Assembly: GCA_946800325.1 (NCBI GenBank)
Contig: OX326960.1
Coordinates: 51,517,355 to 51,581,354, forward strand
Direction: 5' to 3'
DNA: 64,000 nt
From: Luzula sylvatica
Lineage: Eukaryota > Streptophyta > Magnoliopsida > Poales > Juncaceae
Positions 1 to 63,040 of the stretch are shown piece by piece; within the stretch, counting starts at the first letter, position 1, and each line of letters starts with the position of its first letter. The notes beneath the pieces were generated by a model. The model searched no databases. It was not told the DNA's origin and was given only the letters and a program-made list of their open reading frames with translations. The position numbers were made by a program, and so were the translations under genes.

Positions 1-1543
<1,543 letters not shown>

Positions 1544-2399: not shown

Positions 2400-5197
2400 T
2401 CAAAAGTCATCTTCATCACACATTTCAATCTCTGCATCTGAACTTGAGGGTGGATGTCCAGGTGGCGGGTAAAACTCGTCGGAGCAGTCCACAATATCGG
2501 GTTTAGGGTCAGCAAGAAATTGCAGAGCGGTTACCACATCACTGATAATGGGTCTACTTTCCGCTTCTTCTTGGAGGCACATAGCAGAAATAGCCAGTGC
2601 TTGATATAAACCTTTTATCGGAAATGCTCCTTTCAACAATGGATCCGCCATTTCAGCGTACCTGTTCTTGTTCTTGAATAATGGTGCCGCCTATCACATT
2701 TTTGACAAAAAAAAAATTAAATCAGTTTACTCCTACTTGGATATTTGTGATTTTATTTGCAATGTGACTCACCCAGTGAACAAGAATTTGTTCACGAGTT
2801 GGCTTTGTCGTATCCACGGCTCTTCTGCCAGTAATGAGCTCCAGCAGGACGACTCCAAAACTGTACACATCTGACATTTTTGTTAATCTGCCGGATAAAG
2901 CGTACTCAGGTGCGCAATAACCATAAGTTCCCATAACTCGAGTAGTGACGTGGGTTTTCTCGCCCACGGGGCCAAGTTTTGCCAGACCGAAATCAGATAG
3001 TTTTGGGTGGAAACCTTCACCGAGAAGTATATTGGACGCTTTTAGATCTCGGTAAATCACAGGCGGGTTTGCTGCGTCGTGCAAGAATTCGAGTCCTTTT
3101 GCTGCACCGGCTGCGATCTTCATCCTCGTCCCCCAATCCAACGGCCCATAATTTCTAGAATGATCTATATTGATTCATTTTTGTAAAAATATTAAAACCA
3201 AGCAAGAAAGAGAAAAAAGAGGTACAAAGTGTAACAATGTATACCTAAGAGATGATCTTGAAGTGAGCCGAGTTGCATGTATTCGTAAACTAAGATTCGT
3301 TGGCCATTTTCGACGCAGTATCCGAGCAAGTTTACAAGATTTGGGTGATGCAAAAGACTAAGCATCAATACTTCCACAAGGAACTCTCTATTGCCTTGCA
3401 ATCCATGTCTGTCAAGCTGTTTCACACCAATAGTCTGAAAAAAGTAATTCCATATGTAAACTCAAGATTATAACAAAAAATATATAACATATATGTGGAT
3501 CTTTTACTTATTTATTTATTTATTTATACCTCATTTGTGCCTGGAATGTGACCCAGATACACTCTTCCGAATCCTCCTTCGCCGAGTAAATTATCCTGAC
3601 TGAAATTCTTGGTGGCGACTTTGAGTTCGTCAAGCGTGAACACTCGAGAGGGAATATTATCGTTACCAATCCTTAAGATCTCTTGTGCCGCCGCTCTGTG
3701 TTTATAGCTATCTGTATTATGTATACATGCAGGTCATTTCATCATTTTTTACAACGATTTGTTTCAGCAAATTACAAGGATTTTTTTTTTTATTAAGAGG
3801 AATGAATTTACCCGATTGAAATGAAAGACTGCTGACGAGCCTCGCGAGTCCATTTGGCTGTCTATGAGCATTTTGCTCTCTTTTCTCTTTTTTCTCTCTT
3901 TTCTCTCGTTTCTCTCTTTTATCTCCTTTCTCTCTTTTATCCTTTCTCGATTTCCTCCTCCAACATAAAAATCGTTTCTTCTTCTTTCGAGTGTCGTTTA
4001 CTTGTTGTTGTAGCTCCGTCTCTTCTATTATTTTGTTCCATATTAGTTTGGCCATTTTATAGGAAAATTTTCAAAAATATAATCATGTATTTTTAGAGGA
4101 GAAGTTCCGAACCGTATAAATAAGTAGGTTCGCCAAAATTTGGGTGCCGTCTTTTGGATTTCTTGTTCTTTTTAACTCCACATAAATTCCACCTCCACTT
4201 CGCCTTCTTCTTCTCTTTTTGTTGTTGCGCTTGAAATTGTCGTGTTGGTTGCATCTGAGACTGCCTTGGTTGTGCCTGACACGGCCTTGGTTGTTGAAAT
4301 TCCTCTGTTCAATTACAATTTTTGCACAATGTTTTTAGATTAAAATCGCAAAAAAGTAATACTTGCAAAGACGTAGGACTTATGAACGTACTAAGTAAAT
4401 ACTTACCAAGTCTTGAGGTAGCATTATGGGCTGTTTTTTTATTTTTTTTATTTTTCTTAGTTCTCCTTATTCTCCAACATGATCTCTTCCTTTTCTTCAT
4501 TCGTGCCTGATCCGTCTCATTTTGGCAATGCCCTTGTGATTGCTGGATCGCCTCATCTAAATTTGTAATTACGAAAAGCATTATTATTATTTCATAAATC
4601 ACTGACATTAATTACACAAAAGAAAAAAAAAATGAAAATGGTAACAAGTATTATTTGTACCTTTCTTTAGAGGACATGGAGATTTTTTCTTAGTTTTCCT
4701 TATTCTCCAACATGAAGATTTTTTCTTTCGAGAATTAGGATTATTGACGCTCGCGCATTTGTTCTTATCTTTCTTATGTTTTCTCAATCTCCAAAACCTC
4801 TTCTTCTTCTTTGCTGCGGGGCGTTGACACATTTGAGATTGTTGTTGTGGGTCTTTAAAAAAAAGTTAATAATTCGTCGTTAACATAATGAATATATAAT
4901 TTTATTTAAAGACATAACCTAGTTATAACATTCCTCATGGAAAAGAAGAAAAAAACACGTACCATTTTGACAGACGAGATTATTATTGTTAGTTCTTTTT
5001 TTGTTTGCCTTGTCCTTCTTCTTCTTCCTCCAAAACCTCTTTTTCTTCTTCGTCTCCGCTAATGGTGGTACTTGTTGCTGAGGTGGAAACCGCGGTGACG
5101 GTAAATGCCTTTGTTGCGTCTTCTTTGTTGATTTTGTAAGGCAAATACAATCTAGTATTCTTTTCCCTTTGCGTTTCGTGTAACTCAAGAGCCCCAT
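2400..5197 (-). CDS. RLCK-VII (PBL-type) Ser/Thr kinase with expanded polybasic N-terminus
   Basis: Nine exons on the minus strand: 5197-4963, 4852-4661, 4556-4407, 4304-4113, 4024-3812, 3711-3530, 3434-3245, 3164-2773 and 2690-2400, giving 678 residues. Exons 6-9 encode a PBL/PBS1-type receptor-like cytoplasmic kinase. The glycine loop GEGGFGRVY is near residue 371, the lysine VKQLD near 393, the catalytic YRDLK near 489-493 and DFG near 509; the activation segment [18 protein letters not shown] is intact. Such kinases relay signals from membrane receptors in immunity and development. Exons 1-5 (residues 1-327) are unlike any PBL I know. They carry six copies of a lysine-rich motif around tryptophan, such as [14 protein letters not shown], and all of introns 1-5 are in phase 1. 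The start ATG gives MGLLSYTK; Cys18 and Cys20 could be lipidated. The weakest call is the exon 4 donor (G|GTTCGG). A TATA-like box lies about 55 bp upstream. Confidence 0.85.
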
Positions 5198-5814: not shown

Positions 5815-7264
5815 ATGGCGTTCTCCAAAACCCTAAAAACCCTAGTCCGCAGAAAATCCTACTCAGAATCTAGATCCATTTCTTTGTATTTTCATACGTC
5901 AAACCCTAACTTTCCTTTCTTCCCATTGCCTTCTCCGTCACCTCGGATCGAGCCTCCCTTTTCGTCTTCTCCGCCATGGAAGTTTTTTCAGTGCAAAACC
6001 CCATTCTATTTTCGTCGAGAAGGCGTCAAATTTCCAAAGAATTTGTTAAAATCTAGACGCTTGCCTATTTATTTCGATTTTGTGACTGATCGGAGAAATG
6101 GCGAGGATCTAATTGAACGAAAAGGCAAAGAATCGATGAATTTGGGGGTAATTGCGGCGAATGAAAAGTTTTTGAATTTGCCCAATTTGGTCTCGATTAG
6201 TCGAATGGTCTCGGGCCCTGTAATTGGATGGTAAGCTTAATTTAATTCATATCATATTTGATTATACAACTGTTTTTTTTTAAATTTGCGAATTAAACTC
6301 GATTAATTCAGGATGGTTATGAATGAATGGTACGTACCGGCTTTTGGTGCATTAATCGTCTCAGGAGCAACCGATTGGGTATTAATCAAATCATAGTTTT
6401 CATGATTATATCTTAACATTTTTATTTACTAATTTTTGTTTCATTTATATTATAATAGCTAGATGGATTTCTTGCGAGAAAAATGGGAATTGATTCGGTA
6501 ATTGGATCTTACCTCGATCCCCTTGCCGACAAGGTATCTTATTATTATTTTTCATTTCATTATCATTATTTGAAAATAAAACATTTTTTAATATCTTTAT
6601 ATATTTTTTGCACAGGTTTTAATTGGTTGTGTTGCGATCTCAATGGTTAAAATGGACCTTCTTCACCGTGAGTCTTTTTATCATTTTAAGGGTTTATTTA
6701 TAATAATCAAAGAATTTAGTTTTTTTCTTTTTGAATTCTTTTTAAATTTAAGCTGGCCTCGTTGGGCTGGTAATATTCAGAGATATCGGTCTAGTTGGCG
6801 GTGCAATATACAAACGCGCTACAATGATGAATTGGCAGGTATTTTAAATAAAAAAATGTTTAATATTATTAAGCTAATAAAATATTATATTTGGAAAAAA
6901 TATATTTAGTTGAATAATTGGCACGATTTCTTCAATCTCGACGGACCAAATCGTGAGAAAGTAGAGCCATTATTTATTAGCAAAGTAAATACGGTGCTTC
7001 AATTATTATTAGTCGGTTCGGCTCTTCTTCAACCCGATTATGGAACCGAAGTGACTCAACATTATATTACAAACTTGAGGTAAATAAATATCTTTTATAT
7101 TTCGTGCATTTTGCATCCTTGCCCTTGAAAGAATTTTATTGGTAATTAATTTGTTTCGGTGTTGTAGTTTGTTGGTTGCGTCTACAACGGTTGGATCCTC
7201 GGTTGGTTATGGAATACAACATTTTCGAAATAAACCTAGTGTAAATATGTGGCGCTCCAGATAA
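5815..7264 (+). CDS. CLS: Cardiolipin synthase (CMP-forming), mitochondrial
   Basis: Seven exons (5815-6230, 6312-6378, 6459-6533, 6616-6667, 6753-6838, 6910-7079, 7168-7264) join in frame to 320 residues. The enzyme condenses CDP-diacylglycerol with phosphatidylglycerol to make cardiolipin in the mitochondrial inner membrane. The CDP-alcohol phosphotransferase signature is complete across exons 2-3: D-W-L-DG-FLAR, then G, then D-P-L-A-D (residues about 160-186). The first ~110 residues are rich in Ser, Arg and Phe with few acidic residues, fitting a mitochondrial presequence. Hydrophobic stretches follow in [15 protein letters not shown] and the C-terminal [15 protein letters not shown]. All introns are GT-AG and every exon keeps the frame. 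Plastid phosphatidylglycerophosphate synthase shares the signature, but the C-terminal half fits plant CLS better. Confidence 0.9.
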
Positions 7265-7775: not shown

Positions 7776-10319
7776 TCACTCGATATATTCAATCCTGACT
7801 CCACCAATCTTCACCTTCCCCTGCCCGGCTTCCGGCACGAGGGTAACCATGATGCTATCATCGCCTTCCGCACCAATATCATCCAAAAGCTCGGTTAGAC
7901 CGAGTTGAAGCTTCGTCTTTATCGCCTTCTCCATCTTGTCGTGCTTGTGTTTATGCGGCACATTTACAAAACTACCCGCGAGCTCTCGTCCACCAGGCCC
8001 AACTTTCGTATGTTCTTCTGCATTAATGTACACGTCAAATTTCGCCCCAACATCACGATCCACCTCAATTCCAGACACAACCAATATTTCTTCCTTCTCG
8101 TATTTCTCCTTCTTGCTTCTCGACTTCTTCGGCCTCTTCACGGTCACACTCACCGCCTTGTCGAGTACGAAGGGGAATTTGGTTGCCACGGGTGTCCCAG
8201 CTGCCTTGGCCGGCGGGGCAAACAAATCATTTGCCTTTTGTTTGAACGTAACAGTCGGTTTCGTCTGAGTCCACGCAACATTCACATCTTGATACTTATA
8301 ACGTAACTTAGTCGTGTCGAGCACATCGCTCACTTTAATCCTAACAAGTTTGGAATTCTCGTCGTAGAAGAGGAAGGATGCCCCTAGCCAGTCAGGATCG
8401 GTGAGATCAGTGCGTTTACCACCTAGCGATTTCCAAACCGACCACATACGATCTACATTGGCGTGGTGACCATAGAATATTGGATCGCGGCCTGCAGAGT
8501 AAAAGTTACCCATATCCTCGCCATCTGGCTGGTTCGGATCGCCTGACCAGATATGGACTGGGCCGTGCGGTACGTTTTCGAGCTGGCCACCACCTGGATT
8601 GGGTTCATCTCCTGCTCGGAACGGACTGCCAAAGAACAAGGAGGGCGTCGGACTATTCGAGACCATCTACAATTATAGTTGTCGTGTTGTTGTTTGTTAA
8701 ATAATTAAATTAACGTAACGATCGATAAATTGTATAACAGATAATTCAGACCTGACGATACATGATCTTGAGATTATGATCGATCATTTGTTTCTCGGTC
8801 GACACATGATCTCGACCACCGCTATAATCCAAATCTATCATCTTTCCGGCCATATGTCCTGCATTTCTCTTTGAATCATACAAAGGTGACGACTTATTCG
8901 TATAAAGCGCAGGCACCTTCATGCCGTCTGCCGCATCCCAGTTCCAAAACGGTATCGCGAAAGTTGGATCGTTGATCAAACTCCCCAATATTCTCTCGAA
9001 GAAGTACAAGTAGCACCTGTGAAATGGCAAGAAGAGCCATGAATTGTGTACTTGTAGCTCCACATTTGGAAACCCGTCTTGGTCGTAACCACTGTCGCAA
9101 TAAGCGCAATGAATGTTGGCTTGTTGCGTGAAACTCCTCGGATCTGAATCAGGCAATGCCTAAAAATAAAATATAAAAACTCGATAAGTAGTTTAGAGAT
9201 ATAATAAAAACAACCACTGAAACGTTGCAAAGAAACTACGAATGCTACGCTCGGAAGGCTCAACACGGCAGAAACGTTGCAAAGAAAAGGATGGCCGCAC
9301 AATGATCTCTGCTCTCTTTGTGGCCTTACCCTTGAAACGAACCACCACTTGTTCCTAAATTGCCCCTATACGATCTCCATTTGGAATATCGTGGAATCAA
9401 CTACGAATGCGCCTTGCGCTCTCGAACCCAAGGACTCATTCATGGAAACCTGGAGTTTCAACCGAGCTCGCCTTGATAGCCCACTGCAGCTAAGTTGGGG
9501 CCTTTTATGGGCTTCCGTCAACTGGCAAGTATGAAAGGAACGAAACCGGCGGATCTTCCAAACCATCACACGCCCAGCTCAACTTACGGCCAGGGTGGTA
9601 GAGGAAGTTCTAACTTGGAGGAAAGTGTTACCGACGTTTTCTTATTAGGATGGTTTGTTTAGGTTTAAAGAGATGCTTCTTATTATCCTCAGCTCTATTA
9701 TGTAAATATTTTTTCTTTTATTAATGAGAAAAAGGATACCATTCGGTACCCTAATTCAAAAAAAAAAAAAAAAAAAAAAAAAGATTACTCAAAATTTCCT
9801 AACTTTTGTTAGATTTCACTGATATATTAAAGATTCGAAGCATACCTTCATGAGTTGGATTGCTTTGTTGTACTTGGCAATGTAGTCCAATGAGGCCAAA
9901 TGTGCAGCGGGTCGGGTTCTAAGTGGAGTTGACGGATTGGGAAAAGTGAAACTAATAGGGTCCGATGCAGAGCTTGGAGGGCAACAATTAGTTTGAACGG
10001 CGCCAGGTGGCAGATCAGCGGGTCCGCAGGACTTGACATTAGGAGTAGCAATGGGGCTTGCAACGGCATTCTGAGTCGGTCCTAGAGCTGACGTGGCACC
10101 ATATATGCTGGCAACACCAATGAGCACATCGCGACGGTTCAACGACTCGGACTCGGGTTGTTGGTTCTTCGCAGTGCATGAGATTTGTTGTGTTTGATTT
10201 GGTTTACGGCGAGAAACTGAAATTTGTGTTGGTTTAGCATAGAAGGGGCATGTAGAGGATGTGTGATCTGAAAATGAGATGGAAGGAGGTTTCAAGATTA
10301 GTCGAGAAAGAGACGCCAT
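7776..10319 (-). CDS. PPO: Polyphenol oxidase (catechol oxidase), plastid lumen
   Basis: Three exons on the minus strand (10319-9846, 9159-8752, 8666-7776), all joined in phase 0, give 590 residues, the usual PPO length. The enzyme oxidises o-diphenols to quinones with a coupled binuclear copper centre, causing browning and wound defence. All six copper histidines are present: CuA at about H175 (HCAYC), H196 (VHNSW) and H205 (PFHR), and CuB at about H328 and H332 (PHGPVH) and H362 (FYGHH). C179 is placed for the thioether to H196. A Ser-rich plastid transit region is followed by a twin-arginine thylakoid signal (LNRRDVLIG, then an Ala-rich stretch). The C-terminal half holds the DWL and KFDVYIN regions that shield the active site. 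Intron 1 (9845-9160) carries an antisense LINE fragment. Some dicot PPO genes lack introns; this one has two. Confidence 0.93.
9270..9782 (+). mobile_element. 5'-truncated L1-type LINE fragment in PPO intron 1
   Basis: Reading on the plus strand, the translation starting near 9277 contains C-S-L-C-G-L-x-L-E-T-N-H-H-L-F-L-x-C-P, then W. This is the zinc-binding C-terminal domain (zf-RVT) found at the end of plant LINE reverse transcriptases. It continues to about 9655 with a stop at 9532. A 3' UTR and a run of about 27 adenines (9756-9782) follow. The copy is heavily 5'-truncated and antisense to PPO. A 17-bp direct repeat, GAAACGTTGCAAAGAAA, occurs at about 9220 and 9271 near the 5' end. I could not find a clean target-site duplication. 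Confidence 0.8.
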
Positions 10320-16344: not shown

Positions 16345-18028
16345 TTATTTAATACGTTTTTGCACCTTTCTAAAAATTAGAAAAAAACAATTATTTTATA
16401 AATTGTGTGATGTTGATAAAATTATTTGGATGATGATGATTGATTTGATAACAATGATTATGTGATTGAAATAATTGTGTAGTGGTTATTATGATGATTT
16501 CGTAGAAAATTTTGATGGTAGGAAATTGAGTAAAATAGTTAGAATTTCAACAAAAAATTATAACTTAACAAATTCAAATTCAATGCAGCCAATTACAATC
16601 CAAAATTACATTAATAAAAAAAACCAAGACCAATTTAAATTCAACTGACTTAAATTATTTTTTCAACTAAAATATTTTTGCAACTAAAATTTATTTTCTA
16701 AGTAAATTATTTTTCCAACTAATTTGATCTAGCATTTTTTCAAAGAAAACTCATTAACTAAAGATAACCAGCAAAAATAACTCGACTATACATATTTATT
16801 ACAAAAATCTAATATTAACTAGCGCAAATAATGAGCAATATTTGTAGATCTATTACTTAACCATGTATGATGGTTGCGTGTTAAGAATTAAATTAAAAAA
16901 AAATTATTATTGGACAGAAAAAAAGAAGATACTAACCGTTTTCTCAGAGAGAGCTTATTGTAAATATAGGAAATTTTGATATATGTACAAATCTAGAAAA
17001 ATAATGACAAAATCAACTTTGGATTTTTTTTAATTTTTCCAAAACTAACATTTTCGGACTTTGGGAGTCCAAAAATGATTAAGGTGGATATTTGAGTGTG
17101 ATTGTCGAGTTAAGAAAAAAGAAGTTTTTTTTTTGTTTTTTGAAAATAGAAGATTATTGGAATATGTAAATATTAGGGTATTGATAAAATTATATGATCC
17201 ATGTTGTACACAATAAGAAAATTTCGAAAAAGAGTTTGTTTAATTTTGTTGTTGTTAATTTACTAAAATATAATAAAATAATCTAACTCGTGATAAATTA
17301 AACCGAATTTTACGATTTTTCTTTTATTTGTAAAATATGTATATAATCGGACACTATTCATTTTTTGCTAAAATTTTTAATGTCTTTAACCGAGTCATTT
17401 ACTCAATTATAATATATTTATTTAACAAATACATAGTTAACACATGCTCATGTGTTAAATCAAGTTTCATTTACTCATTTATCACATACTCATCTAACAT
17501 CACATTTGAACACTAACTAACAAAAAATATCACATCATTCATATAATGAAAGATTTTTTAGGAGATTTTATATCACCGTTTCAAATAAATTTCTAAGATA
17601 AAAACATCATTCATATAATGAGAGAATTTTTTGGAGATTTTATATCACAACTTCAAATAAATTTTTAAGATAAAAACAAAATAGTTGGGATAAGATAAAA
17701 TTATATTATGCTATAGTTATTTAATATTTAATTTAACAAAAGTGATTATTTTGTTCGATGTAATGATTGTGGGTGTCATTATTTTTTTTTTCAAAGACTG
17801 GGTGTCATTCAAAATTATTTTTCCGAACTTGCACTAATTAATTTTGGTAATTCGATCTCTGAAACTCCTTAAAAAAATGTTCATATGATATTGGATTTGA
17901 TCTGTCCGCATAAATTAGAGGTGTGAATAAACAGGCCAATATACCAAGGTCACTTCTGCTGGGCTCTCCCTAAACACACCACCACTCCAAAACCCTCCAT
18001 CAACCCTAGCAAAGCGAAAACGAAAACC
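16345..18028. other. AT-rich intergenic with a 72-bp tandem duplication
   Basis: No gene is recognised. A tandem duplication of period 72 occupies 17532-17603 and 17604-17675. Both copies start ACATCATTCATATAATGA and differ at a few positions. The last ~100 bases are the PPR gene's promoter and leader. Confidence 0.6.
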
Positions 18029-19204
18029 ATGGCGGCCTTGACCCGTCTCCGTCACCAGCTTCTCAACCGCCACCGTCATTTCTCCGCTTCGCCATCCGCC
18101 ATCCTCAGCCCTTCCGATCCCTCTGCATCTCTAACTTCCAAGCAAAAGTCTCGCGCTGCTCTCTCACTCCTCAAGCTCAAAACCACCACCGATCCGGATC
18201 AGATTGTTTCCATTTGTCAGGCGGCCGCTCTCTCCAGCACGAATCACATGGACCGTGCTGCTTTCTCCATTGCTGTTAACAAGCTCGCTTCGGCCCAATC
18301 GATCACTCCACTCAGATCCCTCATTTCCTCTCTCATTCTCCCCACTTCCCCTCATCATGCTATCGTCCTATTCGGGCAAGGAGGCCTTCTCGAAGACTCC
18401 ATCTCCACCTTCAAATCTCACCCTTCCACTCGCACCCTCAACTCCCTTCTCTTCTCATGCCTCGTTTCAAAAAAGCATTCTGATCTTCAGCGCATATTCA
18501 ACGAATTCCCAAAATCTTACAGAGTTGATCCCGATATAGATACCTACAACACGGTTATAAAATCATTCTGCGAATCAGGTACATCTCGATCATTCTACTC
18601 GGTGTTCGATGAAATGCTCAAGAGAGGAGTCAAGCCCAACAAAACCACCTTCACCATTGCCCTCTCTGGCTTCTACAAAGAAGAAAAACTCGATGATGTG
18701 AGCGAAATCCTCGAGCTTATGAAAGCACACAAATGCGGGCCAGGCCTTACCGTCTATAACGTAAGGCTCCATAACCTTTGTAAAATCAAGAGAGTTAACG
18801 AGGCAAAGGAATTATTCAAAGAGATGTATTCGAAAGGGATAACTCCAAATTGGTTTAGTTACAACCATTTAATACATGGTTTTTGCAAAGAGGACAATTT
18901 GGAAGAAGCCAAGAAGTTCTACGACGAAATGAAGAGGAAAGGGTTAGTTGGAGACAATAAGTTTTATTTCATGATGATTTATTTTCTTTGCAAAGGAGGG
19001 GAATTTGATCGAGCACTTGAGGTGTATAAGGAAATCGAGGAGAAGAATTGGACTCCAAACTTCTCCACCATGAAAATGCTCGTGAATGGACTCGCGAGTA
19101 ATTCGAAGGTTGAAGAGGCGAAGGAGATCGTGGAGAAGATGAAGGAGAAATTCAAAGGTAAACATGATATGTGGAGTGAAGTAGAAGAAGCTTTAGAGGT
19201 TTAG
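18029..19204 (+). CDS. P-class PPR protein, probably mitochondrial
   Basis: A single intronless frame of 391 residues, as is common for PPR genes. The N-terminus is rich in Arg, Ser and Leu with no acidic residue in the first 28, fitting an organelle presequence. About seven P-type pentatricopeptide repeats of ~35 residues follow from residue ~140, for example DTYNTVIKSFCESG, TVYNVRLHNLCKIKRVNEA and FSYNHLIHGFCKEDNLEEA. Such repeats bind RNA base by base. The short length and layout resemble the PPR336/rPPR1 group of mitoribosome-associated proteins, which is my best guess but rests on memory of the family. No DYW or E domain is present. The leader ATG context AAAACCATGG is strong. Confidence 0.9.
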   Translation: MAALTRLRHQLLNRHRHFSASPSAILSPSDPSASLTSKQKSRAALSLLKLKTTTDPDQIVSICQAAALSSTNHMDRAAFSIAVNKLASAQSITPLRSLISSLILPTSPHHAIVLFGQGGLLEDSISTFKSHPSTRTLNSLLFSCLVSKKHSDLQRIFNEFPKSYRVDPDIDTYNTVIKSFCESGTSRSFYSVFDEMLKRGVKPNKTTFTIALSGFYKEEKLDDVSEILELMKAHKCGPGLTVYNVRLHNLCKIKRVNEAKELFKEMYSKGITPNWFSYNHLIHGFCKEDNLEEAKKFYDEMKRKGLVGDNKFYFMMIYFLCKGGEFDRALEVYKEIEEKNWTPNFSTMKMLVNGLASNSKVEEAKEIVEKMKEKFKGKHDMWSEVEEALEV

Positions 19205-36078: not shown

Positions 36079-38060
36079 CCTATAAGACTAGTAAATGCAA
36101 ATGATTCTTCAAATGACTTGTTTGGATGTCGTTTTAGTAAAATGTAGGAATATATGTTGATATATGTGTAAGTTAAACATGCGATTAAATATATTGGTAT
36201 ATGTAAAATGATAATATAATTATTTTATGAAATTTACATGTAGTATATAATATAATATGATATAACTAAAACCAAATAATTAAACATGATGTTGACTATT
36301 ATATAATGATATATTATGTATCGTAAGTATTAACATAATATAGTATCAGAAATTGAAAACGAGCAAAAATTGCAATAAAAATATGAGATTGAGAAATTTT
36401 TTCGTGTTTATTAATAATAATTGTATTATTTTTGTTTTGAAAATTAAAGACATAAATTATTCTGATGTAAGATATCAAAGATTTAATTATGGTTATCAAG
36501 TTTCAATTTAATTAAAATGGAAAAACACCAAATAACGCAATATACAAAACAAGAATTTGAGTTTAGCCAAATAAATAATGATTTTGATCGTAATGAGAAA
36601 AAAATAACACTATATAAACATTGACTAGAAACAAAAAAATTAAACTTTAGTCAAAAATATTATTGATCAATTAAAAATTGAAATTCCATGATAAAATAAA
36701 AAGATACTGGGGCATTTAAAACATAAGAGTTAGTGCATTTAAGTAAGAGAGAGAGAGACCTAGGTAAAAGAGTCAAGACCATGATTACCAACTCCTAAAC
36801 CGAAAAAAACGGAGCAAAAACTGAGCAAAAACTTCAGTTTTATTTTTGCTAGCTTTTGTATACAAAATTTCCTTAAAATTCCTTAACTAAATATTAACTA
36901 CAATATACTAAAGGAAATTTTTCACATGTAACCAAGTTTACAAACACAATCCAAGAAATAACCAAGTTTTGAACGTATTTTTGAAAATGTCTTTTGCGCT
37001 GAATGGTTCAGCGCCTTTTATTAAAGGGCGAGGTATGGTTCAGCGCCTTTCTTAATTACGCGTTGATTGGTGGGTTGTGACGGTTAATTATTAATTAATA
37101 AGAGACGAAGAATGGAACCCCGCTTTTCTTTCAGGAGTTGCCACGTGAGCAAGACGCTGAATGGATGCTCGCCATGCGTGGAATGAAACCCCGCCTTTTC
37201 TCTGTAACCCTAACGCGCCGCTGCTTCTTCCTTTTCTTTCTCTTCTCTTCCCCTCTTTCTTCCTTCTCCCTTTCTTCCTTCTCTCTTTTCCTTCTCTCTT
37301 TTCCTTCTCTCTTTCTTTCTTTTCTCTTCTCCATCTCCCTTCCTTTTCTCCCTTTCTTCCTTCTCTCTTTCTTTCTCTTCTCCATCTCCCTTCCTTCTCT
37401 TTTTAGGCAGATTCGGTGTGTATTTTTTGTTCTTTTTATATATATCAAATATTTTGAATATTTCAATTGATTTTGAATCTTTGAATATTTGATTTAAAGG
37501 ATTGAAATCTTGAGATTTGGACTAGATTTGGGCTAAAGATTTGAAGTTTGTTCTTCGCTGCAAGGTACATTTTTCTATATTTAATTATTTTAATTAGATT
37601 TGTGCTATAGATTTGTGTTTAGGATTTCTATGGATTTGTGTTAGGATTTGTATCATGGATTTGTGTTAGATTTGTGTTAGGATTTAGTTAGATTTGTGTT
37701 AGGGTTTAAATTGCAAAAAAATAATTTAAGTTAGTGTTTAAGTTGCAAAAAAAAATTGTTGACAAAATAATTTAAAAAATAAAGAATTTAAAATAAATTT
37801 TACACAAAAACAACTTGTAGTGCAAGCAAGGAAGGGACGTCCTTTTGCATTTTTTGGGACGGTAATATTATTAGAGACGGAAATATATCCCGTTATGAAG
37901 GAGGTAGAAGTACGTTAGTAATTTTACGGATTTGATAAATTTGGTTCGTAATTGCACTGGAATAAATACAGAAATGTATGATATAATATTGAAAACGAAT
38001 TGGCCATTTCAATCAGGGGTTTGAGATATTGTTGAAATTAATGGTGATTCAAGTTTAAGC

Positions 38061-58092: not shown

Positions 58093-58948
58093 ATGGATTC
58101 ATCCGACATGGAGATGGAATCGGCGGAGTCGGCGCAGGCTCAGCCGCCGGCACCGGTTCATGATGCAGTTGCGGTGCCAGATAATTCGAATAGTCAATTG
58201 GAGAACGCGTGGAATCTCCTCTGTAGGGCTCGCCAGCTTCTCTCTGAGGGCAGTCCCACTCTCGCTCTTCAAGCTGTAAGCTCTAGTTCGTACTGATAAC
58301 CATATATCTTTCTCTTTTCGTCCTCAATTCTTAGCATTTCTTATATTTAGTATCTCCCCAAAATTTCGAGAATCGATCAGGTCCTGTAAGCTTCATACCT
58401 AAGTCAATCTCACTCAATTATTCTCATCTCCAAGTCGTAATCAGCAAATTAAAATAATTTTTGTTCTCAATGATCACTTCAATCTTCATCCTGAATTGAA
58501 CATACATCTCGAAAACGAAATTCACAGTTATAGAAACAGCCAAATTCTCGATTTCATCTCATTGATTCACTCAAATCTTTCCCCCCCAATTCAGGTGCTA
58601 TCGGCAATAAGATCAGAAGGCGGGGACCACGCAGTCCTTTGCGCAATGAGTCGAGCTCGCGAAATGTACAGACAAAAAGCCCACGCTGACGCAGACGCTG
58701 ACGAGCTGACAGCTCTCCTCGCGCAGTGCGCAATAGCTGAGGCCTCCGCTCCCTCGACCTCCAATTTTGCCCCTATGAGCGACCCCTCTCAAATGCTGGG
58801 CAATCCTGACGCGATTTTAGCGGAGGCAGGAAAGAAGCAAATAATACTGGATGCTTTCGCAGATGGAAGTAGCTTCATTTGCTTGAAATGTGGCGGTCTT
58901 ATTAGCGGGTCCCGCAAAGACGAACACTTGGCAAATTGGTGCCAGTAG
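58093..58948 (+). CDS. Conserved plant protein with C-terminal C2HC-like motif
   Basis: Two exons (58093-58275 and 58595-58948), phase 0, give 178 residues. The N-terminus is Ala/Pro/Glu-rich and probably disordered. A helical middle (NAWNLLCRARQLLSEGSPTLALQAVLSAIR, spanning the splice) is followed by a second helix (CAMSRAREMYRQKA). The C-terminus has C-L-K-C-G-G, then RKDEHLANWC, a likely zinc site with C-x2-C and H-x3-W-C. I recognise it as a conserved single-copy-type plant protein but cannot name a proven function. The splice sites are good and the exon 2 acceptor follows a C/T-rich tract. Confidence 0.85.
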
Positions 58949-59838: not shown

Positions 59839-61562
59839 TTATGAAATTTCATAGATACCCCCCTACAAAAAAAATATTACCAACTAAATGTTTTATCAGA
59901 AACTTTTATTATTTTTCAAAAAAAACAAAACATCAATTTTTGTTACCAACTAACTTCCTATTCCAAGTTGACATCTATAGGGTTTATCAGAAAGATACAT
60001 TCCCCAAAAAGAAAAAAAATAGTAAGACCAAAAAGATAGAATGAAATTTTCTTCAATATGTGAATTGAGAGGACCATTTCATTAAATGAGATTTTGACAG
60101 GGGTTGAACAATCGGAATTGATATTAGGAGGGTTAGTTTGCAAATTTATACTGTACTGAATAGTAATGTAAATGTAATCTTGCTTTGCTGATTGTCAATT
60201 CAAAGTCTTCTTCAACGCAAAGTAGGCTGATTGTCACTTCGTATTCAAATTTATTTGGTAAAATTCACAAAAAAAAATACAATATTCTTAATTTATCTTT
60301 TTATAGTTGTGACATGATGGAACAACTTAATTTTGATAATAACTTTATCTATCTAATCATAGATTTAATTGGATTAACATTCTTAACATAATAAAATTAA
60401 GTGATTTGCACATTCTTTTTTTATAATCTTTGGTGGCACCTAAATTTGAAGGGTTGATTGAATTGAAGAAAACTTTCTATCTAATCAAAATTAAAAATTA
60501 ATGAACATTAGGTTTTCATTTTGGTGAATGATGGCAAAACCCTACCCAATTTGCCCACCGTTCATTTTCATTGTTTTGTTGCTTAGAGTAATTTTGAGTG
60601 CACCTCATAGTCCTGTCAAGATCATCAACAAAAAAACAAAAACAAATATCATACACGGAATTCCTTATTATTTTTTCTGAAGTAATATTTTTACAATGAT
60701 CATTAAATTCCATCAATATTCTTTGCTTAAATCCAGTCATAAAGATTTTCAAGTAACACATAATTTCCACTTTTAAGTTTTACTCCTTGATTATCAATAG
60801 ACAAAAGAAGATCATACTTTCATACATACAAAATATATTCCAAATATTGTATTTTTTTATTCCATTTTCATTAGAAAAGATAATTAAGCATGATTATTAG
60901 GGGAAATATCAAATAGAAGGCACATCATCTCTGACCAACTTAAAGTTCTTTTTTGTTGTAACACTTGCAGTAAAGCAATATGTGTAGCGAGTTACTCTCT
61001 TTGTTTTAATCGGAAAACAAAATTTCAAAAATCAAGAATTTTTTTTATTGTACAAATATAAACATGAACAAGTTATTAATCTTATTAAAGTAAAGTAGCA
61101 CTATTGATTTAATTTAAATTATCAAAAAATAATTACATAATTAATTTATGTCAAATCGTCCACGTCAAAATAAAAACCACAAAAATGTCTCAGAAAATAT
61201 GGAAGTGATATTGTCATATTGACGAAACGATAAACAAGAAAAGAATATACTGCAAAATAAACTTTTAAATTTTGAAATATTTAGATTAGTTTTATTTTTT
61301 TAAATAATAATGTCATGCTCTGTTCCTAACTCGCCACACGGACAGATACACCCAATCTTACCTCCTCTTTCCCTCCCATTTTTACTCTCCTCTTCTCTCT
61401 CTCCTCCTCCTCACATAACATATTCACGTTCACATTCATTCACATCACATTCCCCTCTCGTTTTCACTCACCCCTTAACACCAAGCCAAAACAGAGCAAG
61501 AAGGCAAGGAAGAGGGAAGCGGAATTAAAGAAGCGATAAAGAAAGAAACGAGAAAGACAACC

Positions 61563-63040
61563 ATGAAAGGACTTCACAGCACAAGATTCATCCTCCTCCA
61601 CCCCTCCTCTCTCCCCACCACAAAACCCACCGGCGTGGGTGCTGCCTCTCCTCCTCACTCGCCCATCCTCTCCACCTTCCTCTCCGCTCACCACCGCGTT
61701 TATCTCCTCCTTTTTCTCTCCTTCTTCACTCTCGCTTCCCTCCTCACTCTCATCTCTACCACCTCATCTCACTCCCACCACATGTCCCCTACCCTTTCTC
61801 TCTCCTCCTCCCCTCTCCCTTCTCACATATTCGAAACCCTTCTCCATTATGCATCTCAGGCGAATTCGACATCGCGTATGCCCGATCAAGACTTGCGCTC
61901 GGTTGCCAACGTGTTGAGACGAAGGGGTCCGTGTAATTTGTTGGTTTTTGGACTCGGCGCGGAGACTCCGCTTTGGAGAGCTCTTAACTATGGTGGACGA
62001 ACCGTCTTTTTAGATGAAAATCAGTATTATGTTGATCATCTCGAAGGACGCCATCCCGGCCTCGAAGCGTATGATGTTTCGTACACCACTCAGGTCTGTT
62101 TTTCCAATTTATAACTTTTACCATTTGATGCTTCTTCGCATTGTTTGGATTTTTGGAGGATTAGGGTTGAAGGGGAAATTAGAATTGCAGTTTTGAAAGG
62201 CTAGCGTTGATATTTGAGTTTCCAAAAAAATTGCATACTAGAATCAATACAGAATTCAAATTTCAAAGCAGAACCATTTTTAATGCAGAAAACATAAAGG
62301 GTAGCTATTCGGACAGGAACAATTTTAATGGTCGTAGAAAATTAATTCTTGCAATCATCAAAAATATTTCTGTCCGAATAAAAAATAATGAGAGAATGAT
62401 TGGGACAGGAACAAATTTTATTGTTGCAGGAATTAATTTCTTGCGACCATAGCAAACGTTCCTGTCCGAATCACTACCCAAACATAAAACGTTAATGTGA
62501 ACATGTTCACAAGATAAAAAAGGAACAATTCAAATGTATTCTTAGTTCTTGCACAATTAAAGACTCACTCTTTTACATTATATATTTAAAAAAAAAATGA
62601 AAAAAAATAATAATCCATATTTATAGGTTCGGGAGCTAAACGACCTAATAGCCGATGCACGCGAAATGAGAAAAACTCAATGTCGGCCCGTCCAAAACCT
62701 CTTATTCTCAGACTGTCGTCTCGGGATTAACGATTTGCCAAACGAACTATACGGCATAAAATGGGACATAATTCTCGTAGACGGACCAAGAGGCTATTCT
62801 GCCTTAGCACCTGGCAGAATGGCTGCTATTTTCACAGCAGCCGTACTTGCCAGGTCGACAGGGAACGAAAAACCCGTGGATGTTTTGGTACACGATTACG
62901 ATCGAGAGGTCGAAAGGGTTTGTAGCGAGGAGTTCTTATGCATGGAGAATATGAAGGAAGAAAGCGGGACGCAAAATCTCGCGCATTTCGTCATTAGAAG
63001 AGGAGACTCGGCTCGTCGAAACGAGTTTTGTATGGAATAA
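61563..63040 (+). CDS. IRX15-L: IRX15/IRX15-LIKE-type DUF579 protein, xylan biosynthesis
   Basis: Two exons (61563-62093 and 62627-63040), phase 0, give 314 residues. Proteins of this family act in the Golgi on glucuronoxylan of secondary walls. The related GXM members are 4-O-methyltransferases, and IRX15 controls xylan chain length. A short cytosolic N-terminus is followed by one membrane anchor (VYLLLFLSFFTLASLLTLI, residues about 46-64). The DUF579 domain includes GPCNLLVFGLG, GGRTVFLDEN, CRPVQNLLFSDCRLG, WDIILVDGPRGY, APGRMAAIFTAAVLAR and HDYDREVER. The CRPVQNLLFSDC and EFLC blocks favour IRX15 over GXM. The intron holds a small Mutator-type MITE. The leader is CT-rich with many short direct repeats. 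Confidence 0.9.
62299..62479. mobile_element. Mutator-type MITE in the IRX15-like intron, 181 bp
   Basis: Termini GGGTAGCTATTCGGACAGGA and, read inward, GGGTAGTGATTCGGACAGGA differ at two positions in 20. A perfect 9-base duplication AAACATAAA flanks the element (62290-62298 and 62480-62488). TTCTGTCCGAATA recurs inside. Non-coding. Confidence 0.85.

Follow-up and report, generated by a model that had tools for sequence, protein, structure and literature searches.

The window, by which we mean the whole analysed stretch of 64,000 nucleotides from Luzula sylvatica, carries on its minus strand a gene (5197-2400) whose nine exons were rebuilt exactly into a single frame of 678 amino acids, with every junction of the GT-AG type (Table 1). 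As read from the sequence, an in-frame TGA lies six codons 5' of the ATG at 5197. Introns 1-5 (110, 104, 102, 88 and 100 bases) are all in phase 1; the codons that they split encode D, D, E, E and D, and each of exons 2-5 has Gln-rich sequence after its start. An earlier note on this DNA had given the lengths of exons 2-5, a common phase 1 and a size range of 88-110 bases for introns 1-5, and a D or E followed by Gln-rich sequence at the start of exons 2-5; the lengths, phase and range were exact on rebuilding, and the start pattern was recovered as well.

Table 1. Exons and repeat tract of the kinase gene, in positions of the window
Feature	Position	Strand	Length and phase	Content
Exon 1	4963..5197	-	235 bases	Met-Gly start, basic stretch, Cys-Ile-Cys, Gln/Pro-rich linker, motif 1 (12 residues)
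Exon 2	4661..4852	-	192 bases, phase 1-1	Gln-rich start, motif 2 KKKKRFWR, motif 3 (11 residues)
Exon 3	4407..4556	-	150 bases, phase 1-1	motif 4 (11 residues)
Exon 4	4113..4304	-	192 bases, phase 1-1	Gln-rich, motif 5 (11 residues)
Exon 5	3812..4024	-	213 bases, phase 1-1	motif 6 (12 residues), KREK slippage tract, 14-residue juxtakinase tail
9-base tandem repeat within exon 5	3855..3941	-		KRE repeats
Exon 6	3530..3711	-		juxtakinase segment, kinase domain start (Gly loop)
Exon 7	3245..3434	-		kinase N-lobe (GVKQLD lysine)
Exon 8	2773..3164	-		catalytic and activation loops
Exon 9	2400..2690	-		C-lobe end, acidic C-terminus, stop

A plus-strand gene at about 5815-7264, which we take to encode a mitochondrial cardiolipin synthase-like protein, stands head to head with the kinase gene with ~600 bases between them, and HSP70 reading frames at 333-1540 (plus strand) converge on the kinase 3' end. 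Further along lie a polyphenol oxidase gene (7776-9159, minus strand; tyrosinase, PPO1_DWL and PPO1_KFDV domains in the ORF at 7779-8666) and plus-strand reading frames at 17927-19201, 58403-58945 and 61479-62111 with PPR repeats, a C2HC zinc finger and an IRX15/GXM domain. A second copy of the kinase or of its N-terminal array was not found in the 64-kb window at E 1e-3, except for three array matches at 37167-37437 (E 1.2e-5 to 7.7e-4 with filters off), which lie in a C/T-rich tract and look low-complexity.

The kinase domain matched PF07714 (2.1e-42), all Pfam matches were to kinase families only, and the nearest solved chain was PBL2 (E 2e-93). In a search with the kinase (7,985 proteins scored, best 120 listed), it was placed among proteins named PBL23 or PBL7, and many of the closest named relatives among the matches listed are so annotated. 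Judged from its sequence, the gene is an intact RLCK-VII (PBL23-like) kinase with an RLK/Pelle-type domain. In the activation loop of exon 8 (3164-2773, minus strand), a 21-residue stretch differs where many relatives have GDKSHVSTRV; GDKSHVS is presumably the protease site of PBS1-type kinases, and the window kinase may differ from its relatives at this site. The window protein ends in DEDDF, unlike Arabidopsis PBL23, which ends in SKL and is listed at peroxisomes (PMC8886021).

With the RLCK-VII (PBS1-like) PBL23 group the window protein shares the kinase domain, the juxtakinase segment and a Met-Gly/Cys start. It differs in an N-terminus of 327 residues with six basic-Trp-basic sites, as against the MGCFSCFGSKK-like start given for RLCK-VIIa-1 among the RLCK-VIIa motifs in a survey of plant RLK N-terminal regions (PMC10916322). 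This short start, which we treat as a typical rather than a defining trait of RLCK-VII, is absent: Met-Gly and Cys are present, and the N-terminus is far longer. Residues 1-327 hold 107 Lys and Arg, 25 Asp and Glu, 7 Trp and 12 Cys. The start of the protein retains Met-Gly and a Cys-x-Cys (Cys-Ile-Cys), so that the array stands between an acylation-type start and the kinase.

In order to count the sites, we used a regular expression of two basic residues, up to four others, Trp and a basic residue, which found six in residues 1-327, compared with a mean of 0.83 in composition shuffles and none of 10,000 shuffles reaching six; a stricter rule, used across species, counted five. The number of motif variants given in the earlier note, six, was thus recovered. 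FWR or CWR occurs in five of the six sites, the exon-4 site reads KWRW, and exon 2 holds two sites, so that motifs are not distributed one per exon. Trp is present in all six sites, which is partly circular since the sites were located through Trp. A basic-hydrophobic profile, with an assumed scale and cut-off of 0.6, gave six peaks that coincide with the six motifs, the third being a single position. On the shuffles, the motifs were judged not to be a pure low-complexity artefact; the KRE tract of exon 5 was judged to be one.

The earlier note had explained the array by tandem duplication of a symmetric exon. At the protein level, the number of shuffles per 1000 scoring as high as the real pair was 1 for exons 1 and 2, 2 for 1 and 3, 4 for 1 and 4, 2 for 1 and 5, 1 for 2 and 3, 23 for 2 and 4, 18 for 2 and 5, none for 3 and 4 or for 3 and 5, and 57 for 4 and 5. 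At the DNA level (500 shuffles), the counts were 0 for exons 1 and 2 and for 2 and 3, 1 for 1 and 3, 6 for 3 and 5, 8 for 2 and 5, 34 for 1 and 4, 72 for 2 and 4 and for 4 and 5, 169 for 3 and 4, and 181 for 1 and 5. The second site of exon 2 and the site of exon 3 have 32 bases in common at 97%. Pairwise DNA comparison of introns 1-5 gave no likeness (59 to 448 of 500 shuffles as high), and intron similarity was dropped as a sign of recent exon copying. On these sequence comparisons, exon duplication is well supported for exons 1-3 and weak for exons 4 and 5, with exon 4 poorly supported as a copy in DNA, and the 9-base tandem repeat of exon 5 is slippage, not exon copying. The earlier note was right that exons 2-5 are symmetric and that duplication enlarged the array, at least in part.

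Counterparts were sought in protein databases. The search with the N-terminus scored 7,985 candidates sharing most words and was not exhaustive, since basic-tailed relatives found later were absent from its matches; the only protein at E <=0.01 was P0001 of Rhynchospora breviuscula (LUZ63_006973, 520 aa; E 9.3e-20). A search with residues 1-330 of that protein, with the best 120 of 5,335 matches listed, returned many of the same proteins as before. Among the matches listed in the kinase search, P0006 of Juncus effusus (LUZ60_001393, 412 aa) has a kinase part 89-90% identical to that of the window. Both species belong to Poales, Rhynchospora to Cyperaceae and J. effusus to Juncaceae.

Taking segment borders in these relatives from a reading of the protein sequences, we compared them with the window exons. 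The first 79 residues of the Rhynchospora protein, start Met included, match exon 1 (198 vs shuffled 31.6 +/- 5.9), the final segment of its N-terminus corresponds to exon 5 (78 vs 37.3 +/- 5.3), and its middle segment matches exon 3 only, and weakly (54 vs 31.8 +/- 5.3; 2/2000 shuffles). Like the window protein, it thus has a basic-Trp N-terminus, with counterparts of exons 1 and 5 in it; it differs in having about one intermediate segment where the window has three exons, and three Trp motifs against five in the window under the stricter rule. The J. effusus protein shares with the window the kinase part and an exon-3-like segment (100 vs shuffled 27.4 +/- 5.3, with exon 1 second at 58), but has one motif as annotated; its exon-3-like segment stands directly before exon-6-like sequence, and its start is possibly misannotated. 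The start of exon 1 also matched six proteins, P0030, P0053, P0134, P0078, P0092 and P0035 (0/2000 shuffles each), which come from oil palm, Musa (two proteins), Ensete, ginger and pineapple. Of two grass proteins, rice P0031 matched weakly (24/2000 shuffles) and Phragmites P0101 did not match (260/2000). Relatives from palms, ginger, banana and grasses can be aligned with the juxtakinase tail of exon 5, and the oil palm, ginger and banana proteins have a similar start, basic segment and tail in the order of the window.

These comparisons bear on whether the gene model is right. The earlier note had assigned exons 1-5 to the kinase gene and had named a separate gene for these exons, or a kinase start at its own downstream ATG, as findings that would speak against it; the annotated proteins of Rhynchospora and J. 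effusus, themselves predictions, contradict both and bear out the assignment through their counterparts, and the separate gene was rejected on this basis. A milder error, with all or some of exons 1-5 (e.g. exon 4) being part of a different transcript or being skipped to leave a shorter main protein, would fit the exon-4 donor (gttcgg), which appears weak by eye, the symmetry of exons 2-5, which makes them skippable in frame, and the direct junction of an exon-3-like segment to exon 6 in J. effusus. We nevertheless consider it improbable, because the Rhynchospora protein unites exon-1-like, intermediate and exon-5-like segments with a kinase in one annotated protein, and the same order of start, basic segment and tail recurs in oil palm, ginger and banana.

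Next, we placed the gene in a tree of the kinase domain alone (305 columns; 70 rows), built from the window and 69 proteins hand-picked from 168 returned; among the other 99 were double-kinase predictions, near copies, unnamed rows, and additional grass and eudicot proteins. Clades were named after a quick tree and N-termini were scored afterwards. Two monocot clades emerged: clade A with 16 short-tailed rows (support 100/98) and clade B with 39 rows including the window (100/99). Within clade B, the window groups with J. effusus P0006 (100/98), joined by Rhynchospora (100/98). The short-tailed proteins of Colocasia and Wolffia stand beside clade B (84/78), and placement is less sure for the long branches of Vanilla P0064, J. 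effusus P0165 and Rhynchospora P0001. J. effusus has both paralogues, the short-tailed P0165 in clade A and the basic-tailed P0006 in clade B.

At least one basic-Trp-basic motif under the stricter rule occurs in 35 of the 39 clade-B rows, in none of the 16 clade-A rows and in one of the 15 others (Magnolia). An N-terminal net charge of at least 15 was found in 28/39, 0/16 and 0/15, and a basic-hydrophobic maximum above 0.6 in 29/39 (30 before rounding), 0/16 and 0/15, respectively. The motif is missing from four clade-B rows: Ananas, Zizania, Vanilla and Typha, whose tail is 23 residues long. On the tree, the motif requires five changes and the charge trait nine; this is not one clean gain, and loss, truncation or repeated gain must be allowed for. 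The earlier note had proposed that the kinase gained its basic N-terminus; this was not a new gain in this lineage, and a unique invention in the window genome was rejected on the presence of the motif across sampled clade-B members. As far as the sampled sequences indicate, a basic-Trp N-terminus marks a monocot paralogue clade, and the unusual part is the copy number in the window.

Internal repetition of the tails was scored as a z value against 60 shuffles per row. The highest values were obtained for Hordeum (38), Ananas P0035 (37), Brachypodium (36), Ensete (29) and Aegilops (23), followed by Musa P0092 (17), Eragrostis P0033 (16), Zizania (15), Oryza meyeriana (12), Musa P0080 (11), Oryza brachyantha P0034 (8), Canna P0070 and Stipagrostis (both 7) and the window (6.4). 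Rhynchospora, at 3.2, was not above the best clade-A control (Ananas P0050, 3.5), and Musa P0053, both palms, J. effusus P0006, rice P0031 and ten rows of the second grass subclade were at or below 1.9.

An ungapped cross-comparison of 13 chosen rows, with the first 22 and last 36 residues removed and without shuffles, gave best scores for the window of 106 with itself, 146 with Rhynchospora and 41-87 with the other eleven. The scores were 143 with itself and at most 57 with others for Ananas; 181 with itself, 183 with Brachypodium and at most 48 with non-grasses for Hordeum; and 295 with itself, 369 with Musa, 139 with Canna and at most 97 with others for Ensete. In Canna, Brachypodium, Eragrostis, Rhynchospora, Zingiber, Vanilla, Elaeis and Phragmites the self-score fell below the score with a relative, so that the ungapped comparison gives no support for amplification of their own. 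Repeats of different units occupy the same N-terminal place in Musa and Ensete, pineapple and some grasses, and Cys-rich units are repeated in some clade-B members (Ananas, Hordeum, Brachypodium and Vanilla). These similarities, which are not dated events, suggest that at least the rush/sedge, banana-group, pineapple and grass lineages amplified their tails separately.

That the repeated units differ between lineages would also be expected if the tail were a disordered linker in which purine-rich exons coding for Lys grow through slippage and exon copying under neutral drift, leaving the copy number without function. The 9-base slippage in exon 5 fits such drift, as does the one motif of the annotated J. 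effusus protein if its annotation is complete. The retention of the basic-Trp-basic motif in clade B, set against its absence from clade A, and the Trp in every window site, partly circular as noted, argue against it, and we give drift little credence.

We favour instead, with a probability of roughly 0.6, that the N-terminus is a disordered, multivalent anchor combining acylation with polybasic-aromatic membrane contacts, its motif cassette having been copied in this lineage; the function is proposed from chemistry and precedent. In this model, a symmetric phase-1 cassette with Lys/Arg-(F/C)-Trp-Arg-Lys/Arg would have been copied within the lineage, yielding six motifs between the Met-Gly/Cys start and the kinase. 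S-acylation at Cys-Ile-Cys, perhaps also at Cys adjoining Trp, would insert the tail, Trp and Phe would wedge at the membrane interface, and the six Lys/Arg patches would bind anionic lipids (PI4P, PIP2, phosphatidylserine) at the plasma membrane. Avidity, dwell time and the reach of the kinase would all increase with copy number, and the tail could be released by phosphorylation or Ca2+-calmodulin. Tyr is a poor residue for N-myristoylation at position 6, where the window protein has it, and acylation may therefore rest on Cys alone. The model is also weakened by the four clade-B rows that lack the motif, by the several changes needed on the tree, by the one motif annotated in J. effusus and by the low repeat score of Rhynchospora.

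In the predicted model of the Rhynchospora protein (mean pLDDT 62.9), residues 1-152 are below 50 and most of the kinase core exceeds 80, with a gap at 352-374; its tail is thus predicted to be disordered. This disorder, the basic-hydrophobic profile and the precedent of the plant protein NGR1, whose placement at the plasma membrane needs Cys acylation and adjacent polybasic regions (PMC10942638), favour a plasma-membrane anchor. NGR1 would share the proposed working principle but is a different protein, described with two polybasic regions and one palmitoylation site and no tandem array; the polybasic motif of D6PK, likewise a different protein, would be a further example of that principle.

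Nuclear or nucleolar targeting, or nucleic-acid binding, would be an equally possible role for the Lys/Arg array. Its high Lys and Arg content and the resemblance of its basic runs to classical nuclear signals are compatible with a kinase that is nuclear or shuttles between membrane and nucleus, and the polybasic motif of EBP1 offers a dual-use precedent, serving both nucleolar targeting and phosphoinositide binding (PMC4941749). We hold this nuclear role to be unlikely, since the Met-Gly/Cys start, like the Trp of every motif, points towards membranes and a nuclear signal would not explain the Cys-rich repeats of the relatives.

Extending the membrane-anchor reading to the whole clade, we tentatively suggest that the clade-B N-terminus might be an evolvable avidity rheostat, in which membrane-anchor cassettes amplified separately per lineage (basic-Trp in rushes, basic-Phe-Phe in bananas, Cys-Phe-Cys in pineapple, Cys-Cys-Ser-Trp and Lys-Arg-Lys-Trp in grasses) would set membrane dwell and substrate reach, possibly tuned by in-frame exon skipping.

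The statement of the earlier note that no RLCK with this module has been described agrees with the literature searched, which is thin in subscription journals and in which no description of the N-terminal module was found; relatives carrying the module are nevertheless present in public protein databases. We take the rice clade-B gene P0031, Os05g0498900, to be LOC_Os05g41950; a literature search by gene name found no functional study. LOC_Os05g41950 is listed as up-regulated at 3 hpi in the rice line IRBB67 (PMC6971257). The accessible part of the survey cited above (PMC10916322) does not mention a basic-Trp array, and a word search of the available text of PMC12170986 found neither PBL23 nor polybasic.

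Rice, barley, banana and oil palm all have genes in clade B. RLCK-VII kinases act as relays for immune and growth signals in plants, and their membrane position helps decide which targets they phosphorylate. A clade whose putative anchor varies from one to about six motifs would offer a natural copy-number series for relating multivalent lipid binding to kinase signalling, and the apparent amplification of this anchor suggests a tunable means of attaching a kinase to membranes.
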